NCBI GenBank assembly: GCA_030615605.1
Contig: JAUWYY010000001.1
Span: 62,001 to 126,000, forward strand
DNA length: 64,000 nt
Direction: 5' to 3'
DNA from: a bacterium
Lineage (GTDB): Bacteria > Armatimonadota > Zipacnadia > Zipacnadales > Zipacnadaceae
The translations under genes were made by a program, and so were the position numbers. Below are positions 11,265 to 49,162 of this stretch, in pieces (position 1 is the stretch's first letter; each line of letters opens with the position of its first letter). Below the pieces are notes generated by a model. It searched no databases and was not told where the DNA came from. It saw only the letters and a list, made by a program, of their open reading frames with translations.

Positions 11265-12122
11265 GTGAGTGCCAAGATACTTGAAGGTGGACCGATTGCC
11301 GAACAGATCAAAGATGAGATCCGTGCTGAAATTGAGCAGATGGCCGGGCCGCCGTGCTTGGTGGCGGTGATGGTCGGCGATAACGTCGGCGCGCGTATGT
11401 ATGCCAAAATGCAGGCCAAATCCTGCGACGAGGTCGGCATCGCCTACGAGCTTAAGGAGTTCACTGACGAGATCTCCGAAGCCGACCTGCTTGGTGAGAT
11501 TGAGAAGCTGAACGAGGACGAGGGTGTATCAGGTATTATCCTGCAGATGCCAGTACCCGAGCATATCAACGCGCGTACCGTGCAGGCCACCATCGCCCCG
11601 CGGAAAGATGTGGATGGCGTGAACCCGACCAATTTGGGACGCGTTGTTATGGGGCATCCCGGGGCCGCGCCCTGTACCGCGCAGGCTGCCGTGCGGCTGG
11701 TCGAGGAAACCGGTATTGATCTGTATGGTACCGAGGTCGTTGTCGTGGGGCATAGTGAGATCGTGGGCAAGCCCGTTGCGCTGCTGCTGCTGGACGAGTT
11801 TGCTACCACCAGCGTCTGCCACATTGGCACCAGCGATGCGGGAATGCTGGAGGAGCATACCACTCGCGCCGACATATTGATCGTTGCCACTGGCGTACCT
11901 GGTTTAATTAAGGCCGATATGATCAAGCCAGGCGCGGCGGTAATTGATGTCGGCATCAACCGCGTGAAGGACCCCGAAACTGGTAAGTCCAAGACCGTCG
12001 GCGACGTTGCCTTTGACGAAGCTGTGGAAGTCGCCGGCATTATCACGCCGGTACCGGGCGGCGTCGGGCCGATAACCACGGCGATGCTGCTGCAGAGCAC
12101 CCTGCGGGCGGCGAATGTGTGA
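11265..12122 (+). CDS. folD: Bifunctional methylene-THF dehydrogenase / methenyl-THF cyclohydrolase
   Basis: FolD interconverts methylene-, methenyl- and 10-formyl-THF with NAD(P). The 285-residue product shows YAKMQAKSCDEVGI (the catalytic Lys region), LQMPVPEHI, KDVDGVNPTNLG, GHSEIVGKPVALLLL and PVPGGVGPITTAMLL. The GTG at 11265 was chosen because AGGAGG is 8 nt upstream; an ATG at 11260 is out of frame. Its C-terminus ends LRAANV. Copies of the same 3' end with LRAAQA and LRAAKA endings follow further downstream, so the present tail may be acquired rather than original. Confidence 0.96.
   Translation: MSAKILEGGPIAEQIKDEIRAEIEQMAGPPCLVAVMVGDNVGARMYAKMQAKSCDEVGIAYELKEFTDEISEADLLGEIEKLNEDEGVSGIILQMPVPEHINARTVQATIAPRKDVDGVNPTNLGRVVMGHPGAAPCTAQAAVRLVEETGIDLYGTEVVVVGHSEIVGKPVALLLLDEFATTSVCHIGTSDAGMLEEHTTRADILIVATGVPGLIKADMIKPGAAVIDVGINRVKDPETGKSKTVGDVAFDEAVEVAGIITPVPGGVGPITTAMLLQSTLRAANV
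12059..12109 (+). repeat. folD 3'-end repeat, copy 1 (inside folD)
   Basis: The last part of folD, encoding GVGPITTAMLLQSTLRA. Bases 12059-12109 match 13351-13401 with one mismatch, and 12076-12109 match 12809-12842 exactly. It is the left boundary of two successive single-gene insertions. Confidence 0.85.
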
Positions 12123-12142
12123 ATGCGAAAGGACTGAAGGCT

Positions 12143-12787
12143 ATGGATTATGTGTCAGCCGAGCATGGTAAGGAGGCCTACAACTGTCCGCATTGTCTGG
12201 CTTACTCTCGCCAAGAGTGGCGGTATGGGCTAAGGGCCTGTGCACAGAAGGAGGGCGTAGGTACGGCGCATATGGTGGAATCGCTGTCCATGGCATTCTG
12301 CGACAACTGCGACGCGTTCTCCATCTGGTTCAATGATCAAATGGTATTCCCGGATCAGCCAACTGCGCCGCCAGCTTCACCTGATATGCCGGACGAGATT
12401 CTGACAGACTACGATGAGGCAAGAAGCGTTGCAGAAAACTCGCCGCGGGCAGCGGCCGCACTATTGCGCTTGACAATTCAGAAGCTTTGTACGCACCTTG
12501 GCGAATCGAGCGACAACATAAACGATGACATTGGCAGCCTAGTGGAAAAGGGATTGCCTGCCAGGGTTCAGAAAGCTCTGGATGTGGTCAGAGTAGTCGG
12601 GAACAACGCTGTCCACCCTGGGCAGATCGACATAAACGATAAGCCTGAAATTGCTCTGTCGCTGTTCAAATTGGTTAACATGATTGTGGATGTTATGATC
12701 TCACAACCGCAGGAGGTTAAAGAGTTATTCGAATCGTTGCCCGAGGGGGCAAAGAAGCAGATCGCCGAAAGAGATGGGGATGACTAA
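12143..12787 (+). CDS. DUF4145-like protein with N-terminal zinc ribbon
   Basis: A 214-residue protein of unknown function. Residues 14-17 (CPHC) and a second pair FCDNC near 53-57 form a probable zinc ribbon. The C-terminal half (SPRAAAALLRLTIQKLC, GNNAVHPGQID) matches the DUF4145 helical domain, which is often found in defence or accessory genes. AAAGGA precedes the ATG. The gene has no obvious promoter and begins 20 bp after the folD stop, so it would be read from the folate operon. Base composition is lower in GC than folD. Its stop is followed 21 bp later by a copy of the folD 3' end, so it appears inserted. Confidence 0.8.
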   Translation: MDYVSAEHGKEAYNCPHCLAYSRQEWRYGLRACAQKEGVGTAHMVESLSMAFCDNCDAFSIWFNDQMVFPDQPTAPPASPDMPDEILTDYDEARSVAENSPRAAAALLRLTIQKLCTHLGESSDNINDDIGSLVEKGLPARVQKALDVVRVVGNNAVHPGQIDINDKPEIALSLFKLVNMIVDVMISQPQEVKELFESLPEGAKKQIAERDGDD

Positions 12788-12808
12788 TCTAGTGAAACCA
12801 GCCGCTGA

Positions 12809-12842
12809 CCACGGCGATGCTGCTGCAGAGCACCCTGCGGGC
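12809..12842 (+). repeat. folD 3'-end repeat, copy 2
   Basis: Thirty-four bases identical to 12076-12109, followed by an in-frame alternative folD ending (..TLRAAQA then TAA at 12852-12854). There is no folD body upstream of it, only the DUF4145 gene, so it is a detached gene tail. Confidence 0.85.
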
Positions 12843-12959
12843 AGCGCAGGCGTAAGCAAGCAGCCCAACCATACACAATGACGATGGCCATGCGGCGAGT
12901 AGTCACAGGCCCTATGGCCTTAGTTAGTGGGGTGATCGAGTGTTAGGAGGAGAGTCGGC

Positions 12960-13334
12960 ATGCCAAGCAACCGTGGCGATATCGTGTCTCCGTTGAAGTA
13001 TGGTGTAAGGTCTCTCATTGTGGGGATACTTGGCTTAGGTTTCAGTTGCTTAGGGTATCTGTGGGCCCCATACGGCATACTCGTTTGGTGGTCCCGCGGG
13101 ACATCGTCTTCCCTTGCGGGGCATTGGGCGGTGTGGAAGGGTTGCTTGCTACTGGTCATATTCATTGCCTGGCCAGTATGCGGCCCGCTTGCGGTGTGGT
13201 TTGGGCGTAAGTCATATCGGGTAGAAAGTGCCAAGCATCTGGCCATACTGGGCATTATTATTGGCCTGATTACGATAGCCGCTTTGGCTTGCTGGTGGGT
13301 GCTTGTCGTGATGCTTATGATAGCGGTTGCGTGA
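12960..13334 (+). CDS. Small four-helix membrane protein, inserted
   Basis: A 124-residue hydrophobic protein with about four membrane segments (near residues 17-35, 55-72, 88-103 and 106-122). No family recognised. The ATG follows AGGAGGAG at a good distance, so it is probably translated. It lies between copies 2 and 3 of the folD tail and has no visible promoter, so it is likely a second gene acquired downstream of folD. A superficial likeness in size and topology to the inserted gene at 34885-35220 does not extend to clear sequence similarity. Confidence 0.75.
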   Translation: MPSNRGDIVSPLKYGVRSLIVGILGLGFSCLGYLWAPYGILVWWSRGTSSSLAGHWAVWKGCLLLVIFIAWPVCGPLAVWFGRKSYRVESAKHLAILGIIIGLITIAALACWWVLVVMLMIAVA

Positions 13335-13350
13335 TGAGATTTCCGCGCAC

Positions 13351-13413
13351 CGGCGTCGGGCCGATAACCACGGCGATGCTGCTGCAGAGCACTCTGCGGG
13401 CAGCAAAGGCGTA
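13351..13413 (+). repeat. folD 3'-end repeat, copy 3
   Basis: Fifty-one bases (13351-13401) match folD 12059-12109 with one mismatch and continue in frame to ..LRAAKA and TAA. The bases after the stop (gcgtaagcagg) resemble those after copy 2. This copy stands directly upstream of the metF-like gene and may be the original end of folD before the insertions. Confidence 0.85.
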
Positions 13414-18603: not shown

Positions 18604-19098
18604 ATGACTAATCCCCGCAAGCTGGTTGACCTGCAGCAGTTGCGCACGATTATCGCCGACCTGCGCGCCGCCGGCCAGCGCGTGGTTTTCACCAACGGAT
18701 GTTTTGACATCATCCACCCCGGGCATATCCTGCACCTGCAGCAGGCCCGCCAGGAGGGAGATGTGCTGGTCGTCGCGCTCAACAGCGACGAGTCGGTTCG
18801 CCAGCTCAAGGGCCCGGACCGGCCCGTCTTCAGCCAACAGGAGCGAGCGACGGTGCTCGCCGCTCTGGAGCCGGTGGATTACATTACTATCTTCGATACG
18901 CCGCGTGTGACCGGGATAATTGAGGCCATACAGCCTGCCGTTTATGTCAAAGGCGGTGACTACACTCTGGAAACCCTCGTCGCTGAAGAGCGCGAAGCTC
19001 TGGAGCACTGTGGGACCGAAATTCGGCTGCTGCCCGAGATTGGCAACTTCTCCACTACTGATGTTATCAACCGAGTGCGCGGCAGCCGCGAGACCTAG
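18604..19098 (+). CDS. hldC: D-glycero-beta-D-manno-heptose 1-phosphate adenylyltransferase
   Basis: A 164-residue nucleotidyltransferase of the RfaE domain II type that makes ADP-heptose for lipopolysaccharide or other glycans. It has the cytidylyltransferase-fold motif TNGCFDIIHPGHILHL at residues 29-44, RPVFSQQERATVLAAL and VKGGDYTLETL. The kinase domain (RfaE domain I) is absent, so it would need a separate kinase as in HldA/HldC organisms. It starts 18 bp after jag. It supports a diderm envelope. Confidence 0.92.
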   Translation: MTNPRKLVDLQQLRTIIADLRAAGQRVVFTNGCFDIIHPGHILHLQQARQEGDVLVVALNSDESVRQLKGPDRPVFSQQERATVLAALEPVDYITIFDTPRVTGIIEAIQPAVYVKGGDYTLETLVAEEREALEHCGTEIRLLPEIGNFSTTDVINRVRGSRET

Positions 19099-19145
19099 CC
19101 GATGTTAGCAATGTGGCGGAGACCGTCCCTGCACAGGTGGTGACT

Positions 19146-20057
19146 ATGGCAGATCAGGCTGAACTGGCTGAGGAGATTAAGCAGCTCAAAGAAGAGCGAA
19201 ACGCGGTAATACTGGCGCATAACTACCAGTTGCCTGAGATTCAGGATATCGCTGACTTTCTGGGCGACTCGTTGGACCTCAGCCGCCAGGCGGCCGCCAC
19301 TGAAGCGGAGGTCATTATTTTCTGTGGAGTGCATTTCATGGCGCAGACTGCCAAGCTGCTGTCTCCGGGTAAAACCGTCCTGATGCCGGACCCGTCGGCC
19401 GGCTGCCCGATGGCTGATATGATCACGCCCGAGAGCCTCAGGGAGTTTCGCCAGCCTTATCCCGACGCGCCGGTGGTCTCCTACGTCAACACCACTGCCG
19501 AGGTCAAAGCCGAATCTGACATCTGTTGTACCTCCTCCAACGCCGTTCGGGTTGTCGAGTCATTGGAGCCACAGACGATACTGTTCACTCCGGACGCTAA
19601 CCTGGGAGAGTGGGTCCAGGAGCAACTCCCCGACAAAGAGATAATCATCTACCCCGGGCACTGTTATGTCCACGTCCATATCCGGCCGGAAATGATTCAG
19701 GAGTTGAAGCAGGAGCATCCCCAGGCCCTAGTCGTGGCCCATCCGGAGTGCATCAAGGAGGTCCGGGATATGGCGGATGTAGTTACTTCCACAGGGGGGA
19801 TGATCAGGTTCGCGCGGGAGAGCGAGGCCCGGCAGATTATTGTCGGCACCGAGCAAGGGCTGTGCTATCCGCTGCGGCAAGAGAACCCGGAGAAGGCCTT
19901 CTACGAGATCAAGGCCGCTCTGTGTCCGAATATGAAGAAGACCACGCTCGCCAAGCTGGCCGCCTGTCTGCGGGAGATGAGCGGGGAGATTACCATTCCG
20001 CCGGATGTCGCCGAGCAAGCCCGGGCCAGCGTCGAGCGCATGGTGGCGGTAAGCTAG
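19146..20057 (+). CDS. nadA: Quinolinate synthase A
   Basis: Condenses iminoaspartate with dihydroxyacetone phosphate to quinolinate using a [4Fe-4S] cluster. Three cysteine sites are visible: FCGVHFMAQTAK, DICCTSSNAV and ALCPNMKKTTL. The protein is 303 residues, normal for NadA. ATG 19146 follows AGGTGG; a GTG at 19113 is possible. nadB is not in the window, while nadC lies at 56857-57723, so the pathway is split. Its last 4 bp overlap the end of the convergent gene. Confidence 0.96.
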   Translation: MADQAELAEEIKQLKEERNAVILAHNYQLPEIQDIADFLGDSLDLSRQAAATEAEVIIFCGVHFMAQTAKLLSPGKTVLMPDPSAGCPMADMITPESLREFRQPYPDAPVVSYVNTTAEVKAESDICCTSSNAVRVVESLEPQTILFTPDANLGEWVQEQLPDKEIIIYPGHCYVHVHIRPEMIQELKQEHPQALVVAHPECIKEVRDMADVVTSTGGMIRFARESEARQIIVGTEQGLCYPLRQENPEKAFYEIKAALCPNMKKTTLAKLAACLREMSGEITIPPDVAEQARASVERMVAVS

Positions 20058-32870: not shown

Positions 32871-33761
32871 TCAGCTTTCTATCAGCCTTGCCCCATACTC
32901 AACAGGTCGGACTGCGACTGCCCGGTAGCCGGCTTCGCCCACGGCAGCGGCTATCTGCTCGGCCTCGGCTAGACTCGGCAGTATACAGAAAACTGCCGAG
33001 CCGGAGCCTGACAGTACCGCCGGTGTCCGGCTTATTTGGGCTGTATCCTCCTGCAACTCGGCGATTCGTGGCCACCGGGAGGAGACGGCCCGCTGAAAGC
33101 AGTTGAATAGATGCCGGTCGGCATCCAGTCGTCCCTCGGCCAGTGCCTGCTGCGCAGAGGCAGTAATCTCGCCGTCAGTAAAATCGTTGCGTTCCAGCAG
33201 TTCATACGCCTCCGTGGTAGAAATGCCTAAATCAGGCCAGGCCACCACCAGGGCCTGGTCTCTCCACCGAGCGGCCATGCTCTGAACCTGTTCACCGCGT
33301 CCCGATATTACTGCCGCCCCACCAGCCAAAAACAGTGGGACGTCGCTGCCCAATTCTGCCGCCATCTGGTGTAGTTCCTCTCCAGAGGGCGGTTCTTCGA
33401 CCAGCTCACACAACCCCAGCAGCGTTGCCGCTGCGTCACTGCTGCCTCCACCCAGCCCGCGACCGGCGGGAATATGCTTGGTAAGCTGAATATCGACGCC
33501 ACCGGGGCTGCCGACTTGCTCAATAAATATCGTGGCAGCGACGTGACACAGATTCTGTCGGCCGTCGGGTGCCCACTGGCCACGGACGCTGACTGTTATG
33601 CCCTTGGCAGTTGGCCGCAGCGTCAATTCATCGGCCAGTGAGAGGCACTGTACCAGGCTGCGCAGCTCATGATAGCCGTCGGCGCGCTCACCCAGGACCT
33701 CCAGAGTCAGGTTGACCTTGGCAGGAGCCCGCAGCTTTATCTCGGCGCCGGTCTCCGCCAT
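32871..33761 (-). CDS. ispE: 4-diphosphocytidyl-2-C-methyl-D-erythritol kinase
   Basis: GHMP kinase of the non-mevalonate (MEP) isoprenoid pathway. The 296-residue protein shows APAKVNLTLEVLGERADGYHEL at the N-terminus, the ATP-binding PAGRGLGGGSSDAAATLLGL near residues 90-110 and the late VLSGSGSAVF motif. Its start codon overlaps the end of rsmA, an arrangement that implies coupling. The other MEP genes are not in the window. Confidence 0.96.
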   Translation of the reverse strand: MAETGAEIKLRAPAKVNLTLEVLGERADGYHELRSLVQCLSLADELTLRPTAKGITVSVRGQWAPDGRQNLCHVAATIFIEQVGSPGGVDIQLTKHIPAGRGLGGGSSDAAATLLGLCELVEEPPSGEELHQMAAELGSDVPLFLAGGAAVISGRGEQVQSMAARWRDQALVVAWPDLGISTTEAYELLERNDFTDGEITASAQQALAEGRLDADRHLFNCFQRAVSSRWPRIAELQEDTAQISRTPAVLSGSGSAVFCILPSLAEAEQIAAAVGEAGYRAVAVRPVEYGARLIES

Positions 33762-34618
33762 TATTGGGCTGCCTCGCTGAGATGATAGACGGCGTTACCC
33801 AGGGCGACAAATTCGTCAAAGTCAAGCGTCTCACCTCGTCGGCTCCCGTCAATGCCAGCCTCGGTCAGAGCTGCGTCAATCTGTTCGATAGACAGGTCCA
33901 GCCGCTGTGATGTCTTGAGGGAGTTGCGCAGGGTCTTGCGCCGATAGCCGAAGGCGCTGCGCACTGCAGTGAAAAAAGCATCTTCACTCGCTACTCCCTC
34001 CGGGGCAGCGTCGCGCAGTGTCATGCAGAGCACCTGCGAGGTGACCTGTGGCGGCGGCCAGAAAGCCCGGGGCGGCAGCGTGGCCAATGTCTCTATCTGA
34101 GCCGCATAGTAGCGGCAGAATATGGTCAAAGAGCCATATTGCTTGGTGCCCGGCTTCGCTTGCAGGCGCTGACCTACTTCCTGCTGCACAGTGATGATCA
34201 TTGCGCCGAAGCGGGGCCGGCTCTGAAAGACCTTCTCCAGAATGGGCGAGGTAATATAGTAGGGCAAGTTGCCGACCACCACGCCGTCGGGACCGCCCAG
34301 CTTGGTTAGGTCAGCCTTCAAGAAATCGGTCTGATGTATCTGCGCCCGCTCGACATCGCGTAACAGCCAGTCGAGAATATCACAAAGTTGGCGGTCCGTC
34401 TCAAGTGCGATGATTTCCCGGGGCCGGGTGGCCAGCGGTATGGTTAGAGCGCCCAGCCCTGGCCCCACCTCCACGATACGCTGCGGGTTGAACTGTTCAG
34501 CCGCCTGGACTATCTGCTCGGCAAGCAGGTCATCTACCAGGAAGTTTTGCCCCAGCGACTTACGCGGCCGGAAATTGAAATGCCGCCTCAGCCAGTGTGT
34601 CCGACGGCTAAGCGGCAT
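33761..34618 (-). CDS. rsmA: 16S rRNA dimethyladenosine transferase
   Basis: RsmA (KsgA) dimethylates the two adenosines of helix 45 in 16S rRNA. The 285-residue protein has FRPRKSLGQNFLVDD, the SAM loop VEVGPGLGALTIPL, and VVGNLPYYITSPIL with the catalytic NLPY. The ATG at 34618 has GAGG 8 nt upstream; an in-frame GTG at 34657 lacks a site. It heads the rsmA-ispE-NTPase-tRNA-prs-rplY-pth operon. Confidence 0.96.
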   Translation of the reverse strand: MPLSRRTHWLRRHFNFRPRKSLGQNFLVDDLLAEQIVQAAEQFNPQRIVEVGPGLGALTIPLATRPREIIALETDRQLCDILDWLLRDVERAQIHQTDFLKADLTKLGGPDGVVVGNLPYYITSPILEKVFQSRPRFGAMIITVQQEVGQRLQAKPGTKQYGSLTIFCRYYAAQIETLATLPPRAFWPPPQVTSQVLCMTLRDAAPEGVASEDAFFTAVRSAFGYRRKTLRNSLKTSQRLDLSIEQIDAALTEAGIDGSRRGETLDFDEFVALGNAVYHLSEAAQ

Positions 34619-34667
34619 CTGGCGGACCTCTTCGGGTGTCTTGGCTTCTGTTTCCACCGGTAGTGCG

Positions 34668-34696
34668 AGTGTACTTTGGGTATGCTATTGTGTCAA
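34668..34696 (-). promoter_or_regulatory. Sigma-70 promoter for rsmA operon
   Basis: On the minus strand TTGACA (34696-34691), a 17-nt spacer and TACACT (34673-34668), 50 bp upstream of the rsmA ATG. It is back to back with a plus-strand promoter 15 bp away. Confidence 0.8.
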
Positions 34697-34710
34697 GCTG
34701 GCGAGAGCGA

Positions 34711-34739
34711 TTGAAGCAACGGGGCAGGTCGGATATAAT
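34711..34739 (+). promoter_or_regulatory. Strong sigma-70 promoter reading into duplicated tail and relA
   Basis: TTGAAG (34711-34716), a 17-nt spacer and a perfect TATAAT (34734-34739). The transcript would begin near 34746, inside the first tail fragment, and could serve the small membrane gene at 34885 and relA. Confidence 0.75.
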
Positions 34740-34742
34740 ACA

Positions 34743-34845
34743 GTTGGGAACCCTTTGCCTCCTTTCCCTTTACGCTATACTTGTATGGCCCTTGATAGCG
34801 TGGCGGCGGCTATTCTTCCCGCCGAAGCCAGAGGGCGAGGAATAG
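34743..34845 (+). pseudogene. Tail fragment of small membrane protein, copy A
   Basis: An open frame encoding LGTLCLLSLYAILVWPLIAW followed by RRLFFPPKPEGEE and TAG. It lies right at the transcription start predicted from the upstream promoter and has no ribosome site or good start codon, so it looks like the 3' end of a gene whose front part is lost. Its last 36 bp (34813-34848) recur at 35286-35321. Confidence 0.55.
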
Positions 34846-34848
34846 CCC
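34813..34848 (+). repeat. 36-bp gene-tail direct repeat, copy A
   Basis: Matches 35286-35321 at 35 of 36 positions, including the TAG stop and the next three bases. It encodes FFPP..EGEE. Direct repeats 473 bp apart flank the gene at 34885-35220. Confidence 0.8.
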
Positions 34849-34884
34849 CAAAACGCACTGAGGACGCAGAGGAGGTGACCGGCA

Positions 34885-35220
34885 TTGAGCCTAATTGTGA
34901 TATCTCCCTTCATAATCGCTGCGGCATTGATATGGTATGTCTTCAGTCCCAAAGGATTTGGGGGCCATGGCACAGCTGTCTGGGCCGTGGTCAGCTGGCC
35001 GACGGTTATCCTGCTCGTGGTATTCGTTAAACCGTATGGCCTTGGTCCATGGTTTTGCGTGTGGCCAGCGGCAGTCTCGGTTTTGCTGGGCATCTTTCAC
35101 ATCATGATAGGGGGTGCTGAACGCTCCATTTGGACTGTTTTTGAGGGATTGTTTGCGGTGCTGTCAGGGGGCGCCCTCTTCTTCTGGGGGTCTATTGCAT
35201 ATGTGTTTGCCCACCTGTAG
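34885..35220 (+). CDS. Small membrane protein between duplicated tails
   Basis: A 111-residue protein with four hydrophobic helices (about residues 2-21, 30-48, 57-75 and 88-107) and no recognised family. The TTG start at 34885 is supported by a strong GGAGGTGA 6 nt upstream. It sits between two direct repeats of another gene's 3' end, in the same arrangement as the genes inserted after folD. It has no promoter of its own and would be read from the promoter at 34711. Confidence 0.7.
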   Translation: MSLIVISPFIIAAALIWYVFSPKGFGGHGTAVWAVVSWPTVILLVVFVKPYGLGPWFCVWPAAVSVLLGIFHIMIGGAERSIWTVFEGLFAVLSGGALFFWGSIAYVFAHL

Positions 35221-35228
35221 CCCACTTT

Positions 35229-35318
35229 GTCTGGGTGCTCATCCGCGTCCTCATCATCTGGCCGTTGGCCACGCGCCGCCAGTTGTTCTTCCCGCCGAAG
35301 CAAGAGGGCGAGGAATAG
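35229..35318 (+). pseudogene. Tail fragment of small membrane protein, copy B
   Basis: An open frame without a good start encodes VWVLIRVLIIWPLATRRQ then LFFPPKQEGEE and TAG. It is the diverged counterpart of 34743-34845: the WPL..RR.LFFPPK.EGEE pattern is kept and the DNA identity is highest in the last 36 bp. The remaining gap to relA (35322-35486) shows no gene. Confidence 0.55.
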
Positions 35319-35321
35319 CCC
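35286..35321 (+). repeat. 36-bp gene-tail direct repeat, copy B
   Basis: Second copy of the tail at 34813-34848, with one mismatch, located downstream of the small membrane gene and 166 bp before relA. Confidence 0.8.
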
Positions 35322-35486
35322 TCCTATGGTTGCGACGGTGTGTTTCTTTGTTCAACATGTCTAGTGTGCAGGTTCGACGACACGATGTGGCAAGGGCATA
35401 GCGGAACGCAATGGTGCTGTCCAGCCCTACATGCTGACAAAGCTGGGCAAACTGTGAATTCACAGATGGGCGCAGCCGAAACTTGA

Positions 35487-37670
35487 ATGCCGACTAACGT
35501 AGACGCCACAATTGAGCGGGTCACCGCGTATTCGCCGACGGCGGATACACAGATGCTGCGGCGGGCGTATGAGTTTGCCGAGAAGGCCCACGAGGGCCAG
35601 GAGCGGCTGACCGGTGATCCCTTCATCAGCCATCCGCTGGCGGTGGCTAACATCCTCGCGGATATTCAGGCCGACCCGGTGGCCGTCGCCGCTGCGCTGC
35701 TGCACGACACCGTGGAAGACACCGGCGTCGCCATCGCTGACATTGAACGGCAGTTCAGCGAGCGCATCGCCCATCTGGTGGCGGGCGTGACCAAACTGAC
35801 GCAGCTTGACTTCTCCAGCCGGCAGGATAAGCAGGCCCAGAACCTGCGCAAGATGTTCCTGGCGATGGCTGACGATATTGGCGTGATTCTCATCAAGCTG
35901 GCCGACCGCCTGCACAATATGCGGACACTGGAGCCCCTGGAGGCGGAGGTCCGCCAGCGCAATGCCCACGAAACCCTCCATATCTTTGCCCCGTTGGCTC
36001 ATCGGCTGGGAATCTCGCAGATCAACTGGGAGCTGGAGGATCTGGCTCTGAAACATCTGGAAGCGGAGGCCTACTGGGACATCGTCGAAAAACTGGGGCA
36101 GAGCCGCGAGGCCCGGGTTGCGCAACTGGAGTCAGTTCAGCGTGAGCTACAGGAAGCACTCGCCGAAGCGCAAGTACCCGCTGAAGTTGAGGGCCGGGCC
36201 AAGCACATCTACAGCATTTACGAGAAGATGAAAGAGCAGCAGATTGATTTCGGGCAGATTGCCGATCTGACTGCGCTGCGCGTGATTACCGATACTGTGG
36301 ATCACTGTTACGCTGCTCTGGGTGTGGTGCATTCACTGTGGATGCCGGTGGCGGGCCAATTTTCTGACCATATTGCAAATCCTAAATCCAATAAGTATCG
36401 GTCGCTGCACACGAAAGTCTTCGGGCCGGACAAGCAGCCGATGGAGATTCAGATCCGCACCGAGCAGATGCACCAGCAAGCTGAGTACGGCGTGGCTGCC
36501 CACTGGCGGTACAAAGAGGAAGACAGTGATCCGCAGCTTGACGAACAAATCTCCTGGCTGCGTCAGATGCTGGACCTGGAGACCGACCTGGAAGAGAGCC
36601 ATGAGTTTCTGGAGCTTTTGGAGCTTGACCTGTTTCAGGATCAGGTATTTGTCTTTACCCCCGACGGCGATGTAGTTGACCTGCCCGGTGACGCGGGGCC
36701 GATTGATTTTGCTTACCGGATTCATACCGAAGTAGGCGACCACTGTGCCGGGGCGCGCGTCAACGGTCGAATGGTACCGCTGGACTACAATTTCCAGAAT
36801 GGCGATATTGTCGAGATCATCACCTCGTCCAGTGCTCAGCCCAGTCGCGATTGGCTGCGCATAATCAGAAGCAGCCGGGCCAAGGCCAAGGTGCGCAAGT
36901 TCCTGCGCCTGCAGACCGAAGAGGAGAATATCCGCAATGGCCGTCAGCGGCTGGCGGAGGTGTTCGCGAAAAGCAAGGAGTTGGCCGGCAAAACACTTGA
37001 CGAAAAGCTGCTGGCGCCAATTGCCGAACATCTGAATTATCCCGATGTTGACAGCCTGCTGGCAGCGATCGGCTACGGAGAAGTCGGACCCGGCACGGTT
37101 GCTGACCATCTTATCCAGGGGCTTGATCGCCGCCCGCAAACACTGACCGAAGAGGTTGAGCTGAGTCTGCCGGAGACACCTGCTGCGCCGCCGGCCGATG
37201 GGACAATGCTGGTTTCGATCGAGGGTATCCGCGGCCTGGAGTGTCGCCTGGCGCGGTGCTGCAATCCTCTGCCCGGTGATGAGATTACTGGCTATGTCAC
37301 TCGCGGGTCGGGGATCAGCGTGCATCAGAGAGCCTGTAAGAATCTGCAGTATCTGCAAGCGAAAGATCCTGAGCGGCTGCTCAGCCTTGATTGGGCCACC
37401 AGCGACAGCGAGGCCAGGTTCCGGACCCGCCTGGAAATCCTCGCCTCTGACCGGGTCGGTCTGCTTTCGCACATAACGGCCATTGTCAGCGACTGCGACA
37501 TCAACATCGTCGCCGCCGAGGCCAACGCCGAAGGCCGCGAGCTCGCCCGCCTGCTGCTCACCCTCGACATCGCCAGCCGCCGGGACCTGGAGTGTCTCAC
37601 CGACCGCCTCAGGAAGCTGATTGATGTGATTAGTGTCCGCCAGGTGCCAGCAGCCGAAGAAGCCTCGTGA
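35487..37670 (+). CDS. Bifunctional (p)ppGpp synthetase/hydrolase (RelA/SpoT, Rsh)
   Basis: Controls the stringent response by making and degrading (p)ppGpp. The 727-residue protein has an intact HD hydrolase domain (ALLHDTVEDT near residue 75 and KLADRLHNMRTL), a synthetase domain (ALRVITDTVDHCYAALGVVH, NKYRSLHTKVFG), a TGS domain (FVFTPDGDVVDLPGDAGPIDFAY), a zinc-finger/RIS region (RLARCCNPLPGDEITGYVTRG) and a C-terminal ACT domain. Both active sites look complete, so it is the single long bifunctional Rsh enzyme type. Confidence 0.96.
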   Translation: MPTNVDATIERVTAYSPTADTQMLRRAYEFAEKAHEGQERLTGDPFISHPLAVANILADIQADPVAVAAALLHDTVEDTGVAIADIERQFSERIAHLVAGVTKLTQLDFSSRQDKQAQNLRKMFLAMADDIGVILIKLADRLHNMRTLEPLEAEVRQRNAHETLHIFAPLAHRLGISQINWELEDLALKHLEAEAYWDIVEKLGQSREARVAQLESVQRELQEALAEAQVPAEVEGRAKHIYSIYEKMKEQQIDFGQIADLTALRVITDTVDHCYAALGVVHSLWMPVAGQFSDHIANPKSNKYRSLHTKVFGPDKQPMEIQIRTEQMHQQAEYGVAAHWRYKEEDSDPQLDEQISWLRQMLDLETDLEESHEFLELLELDLFQDQVFVFTPDGDVVDLPGDAGPIDFAYRIHTEVGDHCAGARVNGRMVPLDYNFQNGDIVEIITSSSAQPSRDWLRIIRSSRAKAKVRKFLRLQTEEENIRNGRQRLAEVFAKSKELAGKTLDEKLLAPIAEHLNYPDVDSLLAAIGYGEVGPGTVADHLIQGLDRRPQTLTEEVELSLPETPAAPPADGTMLVSIEGIRGLECRLARCCNPLPGDEITGYVTRGSGISVHQRACKNLQYLQAKDPERLLSLDWATSDSEARFRTRLEILASDRVGLLSHITAIVSDCDINIVAAEANAEGRELARLLLTLDIASRRDLECLTDRLRKLIDVISVRQVPAAEEAS

Positions 37671-47641: not shown

Positions 47642-49162
47642 TTAGCTGCCGGGCTCTTGCTGATCTGTACGATGGCTTCCCAAGGCGTCTCCAATGGCGT
47701 ACACCTTCGTTCTGTAGCAGTAAACCGTCCGATCCGGGCCAATAGCTGGTGAGCTGATAACTGGCTCGCCGGCCTCCCTATACCACCAAGACGCAGCCGT
47801 CTCCTTGGTTGACTCGGGGATAGCATAGATCCATCGCTGGGTTCCGTCTGGATTGAGACTGTAGAGGTACAGTCCCTCATCCTCTTCAGAGAAAACAGTC
47901 AGGTAGATGTTCCCCGCACCATCCACGGCGGGGGCCGTCGTCATCTCACCAGGCATTTCGTGTTCCCATAACAGTTCGCCGTCGTGGTTAAGAGCATACA
48001 GCATGTGATAGTGGTCGAGAGGCTCGTTCCTGCCACCCTCCGTTGGGTATTCGCCGTTATGGAAAAGAGCGTCCAGCATATGACGGAGCTCAAGAAGCCC
48101 GTTCCTGTTACCCTCCGTTGGGTACCTGACGGAGGACGGCAGGTCGGCTTCGCCGACATAGATACGGTCAGGTGTCATCGCCAAGTGGGCGGCAGAGCGT
48201 CCCCTCAATTCGAACCGCCACTCAACTTCCAGACTCGTTGCACCTACCCGATAGAGTATCCCGCTCCATAAATTCATCAACACATACACTGCATCGTGTT
48301 TCTGACTTACTGCGAGTCCCACGTTGTTGCCGGCATCCTCGAACGCAGCCAGCTGGCCGGTGCTCCCGTCGGGCCGGACGACATGGAGGATCCCTCTGTC
48401 GAGACAGTAAAGCCACACGCCGTTCGCATCTTCTCCAAGTGCCAGCTTCAGCCGGCCACCCGGGCCGTATTTCGATTTGATCGGGTACTCCTCAAGCGTG
48501 TGGCCCTCCGGCGACATGACTACTAATCGGAATTCTTCGACTTTGAAGTCAGATACGGAAGAGCTGCAAAAGTAGATACGGTCCTGTGTGTCCACGACGG
48601 GCGCGCAGTGCAGCAATCCCACCTTCCTCTTCCAGACAACGTTCCCGTCCCGATCCAGGGCATAAAGGAAGTTGACGGAGGGTATAGGTAAAGGAAAGTC
48701 GCTCCCGTGCTTGATGACTGGGACCACTACGGTACCGTCCGATAGCAACGCCAAACGGCAAAGCCCTGCTGGGCCCAAACTCGCGGAAAGCTCACGAGTC
48801 CAGCGAAACGTCCCGTCCGGCTTTATGCAGAATACAGACCACGGGGTTGCCAGCATGCAGTCGCCCTGGCGCGAGACAACCGGAGCGGTCTCCTGATCGA
48901 AGAAGCCGGGGACCATATTCTCGTCTCCCAACGCGCTTGATTCCCACTTGAGCTTGGGAGAAGCCGGCCCAACGAGCACAACATGACCAGTGTTGGCTGC
49001 GTCCGCGCGGAAGAGGGGCCATGGTTGGAGCGATCCCCCCAACTGCACGCTTCCTGCCTTCTGTCCTGGCGCTCTGCAGCCCACTGTCAAACAGGCGCCA
49101 CTGATGCACGCGGCCAGAACGATGCAAGCAACAGCAGAAAATCCTGGTGTACGACTAGACAT
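47642..49162 (-). CDS. Secreted or lipid-anchored beta-propeller protein
   Basis: A 506-residue protein of PQQ-like blades ('LYALDRDGNVVWKRKV', 'LYSLNPDGTQRWIYAI', 'AIGPDRTVYCY'). The N-terminus has a hydrophobic signal ending LTVGC, a possible lipobox. The DNA at 47976-48125 is an imperfect tandem duplication with a 75-bp period. It encodes 25-residue units beginning PTEG.RN and containing HML.AL.H.GE. GGAGGC precedes the ATG. It is unrelated in its N-terminus to the propeller at 2989-4968. Function unknown. Confidence 0.82.
   Translation of the reverse strand: MSSRTPGFSAVACIVLAACISGACLTVGCRAPGQKAGSVQLGGSLQPWPLFRADAANTGHVVLVGPASPKLKWESSALGDENMVPGFFDQETAPVVSRQGDCMLATPWSVFCIKPDGTFRWTRELSASLGPAGLCRLALLSDGTVVVPVIKHGSDFPLPIPSVNFLYALDRDGNVVWKRKVGLLHCAPVVDTQDRIYFCSSSVSDFKVEEFRLVVMSPEGHTLEEYPIKSKYGPGGRLKLALGEDANGVWLYCLDRGILHVVRPDGSTGQLAAFEDAGNNVGLAVSQKHDAVYVLMNLWSGILYRVGATSLEVEWRFELRGRSAAHLAMTPDRIYVGEADLPSSVRYPTEGNRNGLLELRHMLDALFHNGEYPTEGGRNEPLDHYHMLYALNHDGELLWEHEMPGEMTTAPAVDGAGNIYLTVFSEEDEGLYLYSLNPDGTQRWIYAIPESTKETAASWWYREAGEPVISSPAIGPDRTVYCYRTKVYAIGDALGSHRTDQQEPGS

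Follow-up and report, generated by a model that had tools for sequence, protein, structure and literature searches.

An apparent lineage-specific insertion of family gene tails and an orphan reading frame between ksgA and relA in a Zipacnadia genome

Results and Discussion

A piece of about 690 bp lies between two divergent genes, which we take to be ksgA and relA, in the window (the whole stretch of 64,000 nucleotides that was analyzed), and comparison with related genomes indicates that it is a lineage-specific insertion. On balance, we consider it probable that this relA-leader interval is the recent insertion of a fragment of a gene array delimited by T, the 3' coding end of a family of small genes termed here MNTL. 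The inserted piece would consist of a severed gene tail, an array spacer with a ribosome-binding site, an orphan membrane-protein gene and a second T (Table 1). The gene names used here (ksgA, relA, folD and metF) are presumed ones, given from our own reading of the sequences. The genome that holds the window, from an uncultured bacterium of sediment type, is referred to as G000 and its relatives as G001 onward.

Table 1. Features of the ksgA-relA interval and of the folD array, in window coordinates.
Feature	Position	Strand	Basis or remark
folD tail array	12059..13412	+	related design to the relA-leader locus; followed by metF
ksgA (host flank)	33761..34657	-	divergent from the insertion; ORF list
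relA promoter-like site TTGAAG-N17-TATAAT	34711..34739	+	host DNA; sequence and blastn; TTGAAG at 34711-34716, TATAAT at 34734-34739
Left T: final helix and tail of an MNTL protein, no gene body	34755..34848	+	HMM 29.6 bits
Array-type spacer CCAAAACGCAC.., then ribosome-binding site AGGAGGTGA	34849..34884	+	assigned by eye and by blastn against tandem-array spacers in G005, G006 and G000
Orphan 111-aa membrane-protein ORF, TTG start	34885..35220	+	ORF list
Right T, tail ..IIWPLATRRQLFFPPKQEGEE*	35247..35321	+	HMM 35.7 bits
Pre-relA spacer	35322..35484	.	no match in the 15 genomes of the taxonomic family
relA/spoT-like gene (host flank)	35487..37670	+	ORF list

Two Family Tails in the ksgA-relA Spacer

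An earlier, sequence-only reading of this DNA had reported a 36-bp repeat with one mismatch that ends in TAG, and self comparison bore this out. The match between 34813-34848 and 35286-35321 sits within a longer, 63-nt repeat of 81% identity (34786-34848 and 35259-35321; E 7.1e-11 in a 5-kb self comparison), the copies of which are 473 bp from each other in the spacer. The exact 15-mer TTCTTCCCGCCGAAG occurs twice in the whole window, both times in this repeat pair. Both copies had also been read as tails of membrane proteins, and the translations and the family HMM agreed: the left tail reads ...LVWPLIAWRRLFFPPKPEGEE* and the right tail ends as listed in Table 1, both with a TAG stop, and the C-terminal W.L.TRR.LFFPPK.EGEE block was recognized by the HMM in each. 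These scores show that both window tails belong to the MNTL family. The reading frame of the right T differs from that of the 111-aa ORF, whose stop lies about 27 nt before it.

The Interval Compared with Relatives

The ksgA-relA spacer is 829 bp in G000 versus 136, 136, 136, 227 and 137 bp in G005, G004, G002, G001 and G006, in all of which ksgA and relA are divergent, so that the site is filled in G000 only and empty in five relatives. Among same-genus genomes, these five were the only ones to yield both genes (5/5). Outside the spacer comparison were G003 (no ksgA match), G008 and G010 (none), G011 and G013 (partial ksgA), and G007, G009, G012 and G014, whose compared stretch had no relA match. 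The flanking genes have orthologues in the five genomes, at 68–91% identity for ksgA and 74–91% for relA.

Host homology ends at about 34740-34752 and restarts at about 35484 (the left side having been aligned with G006 and G001); the junction with the left T, read by eye from the empty-site sequences, is at about 34750-34756. No T was present between ksgA and relA in the five same-genus relatives, and the frame upstream of the left T is host spacer DNA; therefore the left T has no gene body at this site. These comparisons, which the sequence-only reading had suggested making, excluded a pair of full-length paralogues at the site. They also modified the claim that the tail of a gene had been duplicated around a small gene: the tail-gene-tail design was confirmed, but the tails are stray copies of T and not the 3' end of a host gene, and the left copy is a family tail that no gene body precedes.

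The insert starts about 10–16 nt 3' of the -10 box of the relA promoter-like site, which blastn also found in the empty sites of G006 and G001. As the insertion adjoins the relA promoter on its downstream side, the 111-aa ORF, which had been described as promoterless, is not so in context; TTGAAG-N17-TATAAT stands directly upstream and is conserved in two relatives. The ORF, now behind this promoter, would be co-transcribed with relA, and any synthesis of its product is expected to draw on the relA transcript.

Might the interval be an artifact of assembly or binning? The assembly is of the metagenome type and there are repeats at the junctions, but we find this explanation scarcely credible, as the locus is in the middle of a 303-kb contig, repeats of 36–63 nt are short for an assembler to confuse, and matching T units were found in other genomes.

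The 111-aa Reading Frame

The membrane-protein ORF of 111 residues, with its TTG start and a strong signal upstream, had been correctly described from the letters of the window, and AGGAGGTGA is positioned just 5' of the start codon. The codon score of this ORF is the best of the six frames, yet near zero (-0.009), and its coding support therefore appears only moderate. The predicted product is hydrophobic over most of its length. The GC content of the gene is 53%, versus 59–60% for ksgA and relA. Searches with the product returned no Pfam match, no relative other than itself at E<=0.01 in the 15 genomes of the taxonomic family, no relative in plasmid or phage records, and none in viral contigs.

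Another reading is decay in place, by which two MNTL genes lost their bodies and the second left the 111-aa ORF behind as a frameshifted remnant. The lengths suit this proposal, since 111 aa and a 33-aa tail give 144 aa, which is typical of the family, and both tails are indeed family tails. However, the ORF scored -4 bits against the family HMM, the joined reading scored 25.3 bits versus 36.0 bits for the tail alone, and the empty site contains none of the sequence. We regard decay in place as improbable, and the specific frameshift reading, in which the ORF and the right tail are one family gene, was rejected on the HMM scores. The family start MNTLxDTDEGRARPSVWPVY and the RPWGWW block were not found together in one frame at the locus.

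The MNTL Family and the Dispersal of T

Full-length members of the MNTL family are 128–175 aa and have the form MNTLxDTDEGRARPSVWPVYV...LFGxVTxxGLVRLRPWGWWC...WxLATRRxLFFPPKPEGEE. A search of G000 (2.89 Mb in 59 contigs) with the tail identified nine places, and a five-member profile at E<=10 identified ten: six full-length members (one inside a 583-aa frame), three tail-only places (both window copies and one on contig C25) and one start-only place (C51, E 0.17). A profile of 19 members, built without G005 C14:26680, which has internal stops, and without partial matches, had matches in 8 of the 46 genomes searched within the class, Candidatus Zipacnadia, which was named in PMC10290634. The family was modeled as four helices (pLDDT 80.7), and this model had no PDB match at E<=0.001. 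In Pfam, 15 members gave scattered weak matches, each in one of the 15 (DUF2127, DUF5366, DUF5693 and DUF308).

In G005 and G006, tandem arrays have junctions that share 87% identity over 69 nt with the left T and the spacer behind it (34802-34870). For the DNA of the right T, identity is 98% over 50 nt with G006 C7 and 84% over 68 nt with C12:204288 of G000; for comparison, relA of G000 and G006 are 74% identical as proteins, and 45% of the codons for shared residues differ. T-like DNA was found in 6 of the 15 genomes of the taxonomic family, including G011, in which there was no MNTL family gene at E 0.001. Solo copies of T are present at C25, at G005 C29 and in G011.

The core of T, GGGCGAGGAATAGCCC, also ends genes from outside the family. 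Among them are the unrelated genes A and C of the array on C40, where the core is in frame and where gene C also carries the family start, a 239-aa gene in G005 and others; the core ends a 101-aa frame on C7 as well. Counting as a segment any core preceded by the family tail or followed by one of two spacers, we identified 31 distinct T-core segments in 173 sequences (727 kb) and 0 in a reversed-sequence control, a count made with loose mismatch limits on partly overlapping sequences after removal of duplicates, and in which the G008 segment may be due to chance. A search with the core pattern gave 16 matches versus 3 in the control for G000, 13 versus 2 for G006 and 10 versus 7 for G005. Together, these data indicated that T is a dispersed module and, at the same time, the coding end of a gene family. 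The idea that the repeat is a dispersed element, which had been named as an objection to the sequence-only reading, is consequently right as to dispersal and wrong as to the nature of T.

Rickettsial palindromic elements are small mobile repeats that also occur inside genes. T is like them in being a short dispersed repeat that is also found in reading frames, and differs in being a true gene-family end with a stop codon, in which no palindromic structure has been established. Rfam gave no match in 34500-35600 at E<=1. Single-sequence folds of T often paired GGNTNTTC with GAATAGCC, but we make no claim for a hairpin or structured RNA in T because this pairing overlaps Leu/Phe codons.

Two T copies in G005 (L166:1054 and L171:1893, on C14 and C29) both have the change TTCTTCTAGTGAAG, which creates a stop inside the tail. 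That this change is common to two loci suggests that T spreads as DNA even with a broken frame.

Several of these observations favor the insertion of an array fragment. There are six full-length MNTL members in G000 in addition to the matches across the class, the left T and its spacer resemble array junctions, and the genes on C40 have been grafted with the T core. We propose that T-delimited arrays gain, lose and move genes via recombination between near-identical copies of T, at gene ends, and of S, at gene starts, and that illegitimate recombination probably then placed a fragment of one such array between ksgA and relA. Two observations weigh against this: the 15 genomes of the taxonomic family contained no donor or match for either the 111-aa gene or 35322-35484, and the right T is out of frame, unlike the in-frame core of the C40 genes A and C.

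Homogenized Gene Starts and Ends

Codons were compared among 19 MNTL members for pairs sharing the residue. Codons 2–21, which make up the start block, differed in 346/2546 comparisons (14%), those of the RPWGWW block in 1175/1791 (66%), those of the middle in 2523/3949 (64%) and those of the tail block, T, in 677/1658 (41%). As judged from these counts, the ends of the family are homogenized at the DNA level. Between G000 and G006, the start block differed in 9–13% of codons, and 11 ordinary ORFs differed in 39% (52/133) of the first 20 codons and in 48% (837/1751) of the rest. Versus the closer G005 the values were 10–20% for the start block and, in 51 ordinary ORFs, 10% (84/816) for the first 20 codons and 20% (1826/8964) for the rest, so that in this comparison the start block diverges no less than ordinary starts do; shadow frames are still included in both ordinary-ORF controls. 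The low divergence of starts could partly reflect selection on translation initiation.

A family whose ends are homogenized while its middles run free lends itself naturally to testing edge-guided gene exchange. A broader proposal, which we consider doubtful, is that Zipacnadia have an undescribed small-gene exchange system in which the S and T modules, kept almost the same as DNA, serve as recombination edges. If this were true, orphan membrane-protein genes would be exchanged across these edges, attached to unrelated genes or inserted after housekeeping genes along with a copied tail.

Some unusual gene ends were observed in the course of this work. On C51, the first ~47 profile positions of a TrmO-like ORF (L027:5852-6188, minus strand) are replaced by the MNTL start module MNTLSDTDEDRAKPA, and the match to TrmO_N (116 profile positions) starts only at position 48. 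On the same contig, an apparently truncated P-loop ORF (GKGGVGKTT; L027:5459-5806, minus strand) continues into the 3' end of a different gene, ..LAEVSMESVRKLFIA*, and a gene with this ending precedes MNTL genes at the C40-type locus. We considered whether the gene 3' end found upstream of several S modules travels with them and rejected this, as the C40-type locus represents ancestral synteny and the 3' end looks displaced only at G000 C51 and G006 C60. At C40:36550-38918 (L198), tandem genes of 362 and 375 aa are 96% identical over their first 75 nt, within a longer repeat of ~64%, and represent another homogenized gene start.

The folD and metF Loci

The sequence-only reading had likened the relA-leader locus to an array behind folD. 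In G000 this array has the order folD tail, 222-aa DUF4145 gene, tail, 124-aa membrane gene, tail, metF, while in G005 folD runs into metF with a single tail. Measured against this single-tail site of G005, the G000 stretch of three tails and two genes represents an insertion. The likeness holds for design and as a related type of event but not for the target: T is absent from the ksgA-relA empty site, and the two loci therefore differ at the target level.

At metF, G005 (C10 ~18741-19960, L237) has metF, a membrane gene, a decayed copy of the metF tail and an rnpA-like gene; in G000 the membrane gene is present and the tail copy is absent. An insert with a decaying copy of the tail of the upstream gene is a readable footprint of orphan-gene entry, with no evident transposase or integrase, and its stages can be seen at folD (empty in G005, filled in G000) and at metF (copy decayed in G005, missing in G000).

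The folD locus also lends weight to a stepwise origin, in which a solo T came first in the relA leader and a circle of orphan gene with T-like DNA then integrated by a single crossover into T, as at folD, duplicating it. Solo T copies exist, as noted above, the folD empty site has one tail, tail-gene-tail arrangements occur at other host genes, and circularization with a single crossover has been documented in E. coli (PMC3240628). However, the two T copies clearly differ (81% over 63 nt) and extend into different family-like sequence. This divergence and the different extensions favor separate T units over the duplication of one T, and we consider the stepwise origin a serious but unlikely alternative to the insertion of an array fragment.

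Comparison with Described Processes

The closest described process is insertion with long target duplication, which was reported for Helicobacter pylori by Nobusato et al. 2000 and is described in passages of PMC1643837, PMC3154945 and PMC3031569. In those passages a unit lies between long direct repeats of the target and the empty site has one copy, a description that fits folD. The process as described there chiefly concerns restriction-modification genes; here, orphan genes, a DUF4145 gene and a weak BrnT-like gene are at gene 3' ends. An empty site was found for both the ksgA-relA (five relatives) and folD (G005) loci. The repeat is native target DNA at folD and not at ksgA-relA, where the five relatives have no T, and for this reason we do not assign the ksgA-relA locus to this process. 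An inserted restriction-modification gene, which is typical though not essential, is not what the relA leader contains, as its 111-aa ORF has no Pfam match.

The minimal mobile element of Saunders and Snyder 2002, as described in PMC3898611, may be comparable; in it, differing whole-gene cassettes lie between conserved genes and are exchanged by homologous recombination, and at the ksgA-relA site G000 alone is occupied while five relatives are empty. In that description it is not defined by a copied gene tail or by a homogenized start or tail module, unlike the loci here. Homology-facilitated illegitimate recombination and single-crossover integration (PMC3240628) provide two routes, a homologous anchor with an illegitimate joint and a circle with a single crossover, that would yield structures such as those observed here. 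That account concerns a laboratory event with marker DNA, whereas our loci imply no particular route of uptake. In other species, illegitimate recombination has been given as the origin of most short variable segments (PMC2884548). In the one open-access library that was searched, we did not find the present arrangement described.

Copied Gene Tails Elsewhere in the Genome

The wider search for tail-gene-tail arrangements that had been suggested was conducted on 869 kb, about 30% of G000, and revealed more cases; this set is not a random sample, as its contigs were partly chosen for family members or the T core. The last 78 nt had a downstream copy within 2.5 kb in 11 of 631 ORFs, versus 2 mid-gene and 4 three-quarter control segments (Fisher p 0.011 and 0.058, respectively). 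Upstream copies of gene starts were found for 13/630 genes versus 4/630 mid-gene segments. The 11 tail copies comprised four family, array or tandem paralogues, one 26-nt match and six other genes, namely mutS, a pentapeptide-repeat gene, folD, a 264-aa gene with a weak zf-HC2 match, ruvA and an AIR-synthase-like gene. In several cases tail and copy are separated by single genes, such as the DUF4145 and 124-aa membrane genes at folD and a 275-aa gene on C40. Behind ruvA (L208:7911-9170, C40) the tail recurs 581 bp downstream, and the small gene in this interval has a weak BrnT toxin/DUF4258 match below the cut-off; the mutS copy is 99 bp away with no gene between.

In six tail pairs, 26 of 41 differences are at third codon positions (p 8e-5 versus 1/3; p 0.02 versus 0.46, a crude expectation). 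This excess tells against every pair being a pure target duplication, and some tail copies may be the tails of orthologues from other genomes.

A further possibility is a dedicated site-specific recombination of small gene cassettes, integron-like, with T and the folD-type tails as attachment sites. Small orphan genes, a T core that is common while its flanks differ on either side, insertion at gene ends and a possible GGCTATTC/GAATAGCC hairpin in T would all be in keeping with such a system. Nevertheless, the ORF list has no recombinase in the insert, no common sequence was seen among the folD, ruvA and mutS tails, and the putative hairpin is inside coding sequence and has no Rfam match, and we consider such a system very unlikely.

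Repeats no more than 2 kb apart in the 869,291 bp of G000 numbered 46 direct and 1 inverted, with many of the direct repeats being tandem paralogues or repeats inside genes. The window itself has a 75-nt tandem duplication, 79% identical, at 47975-48124.
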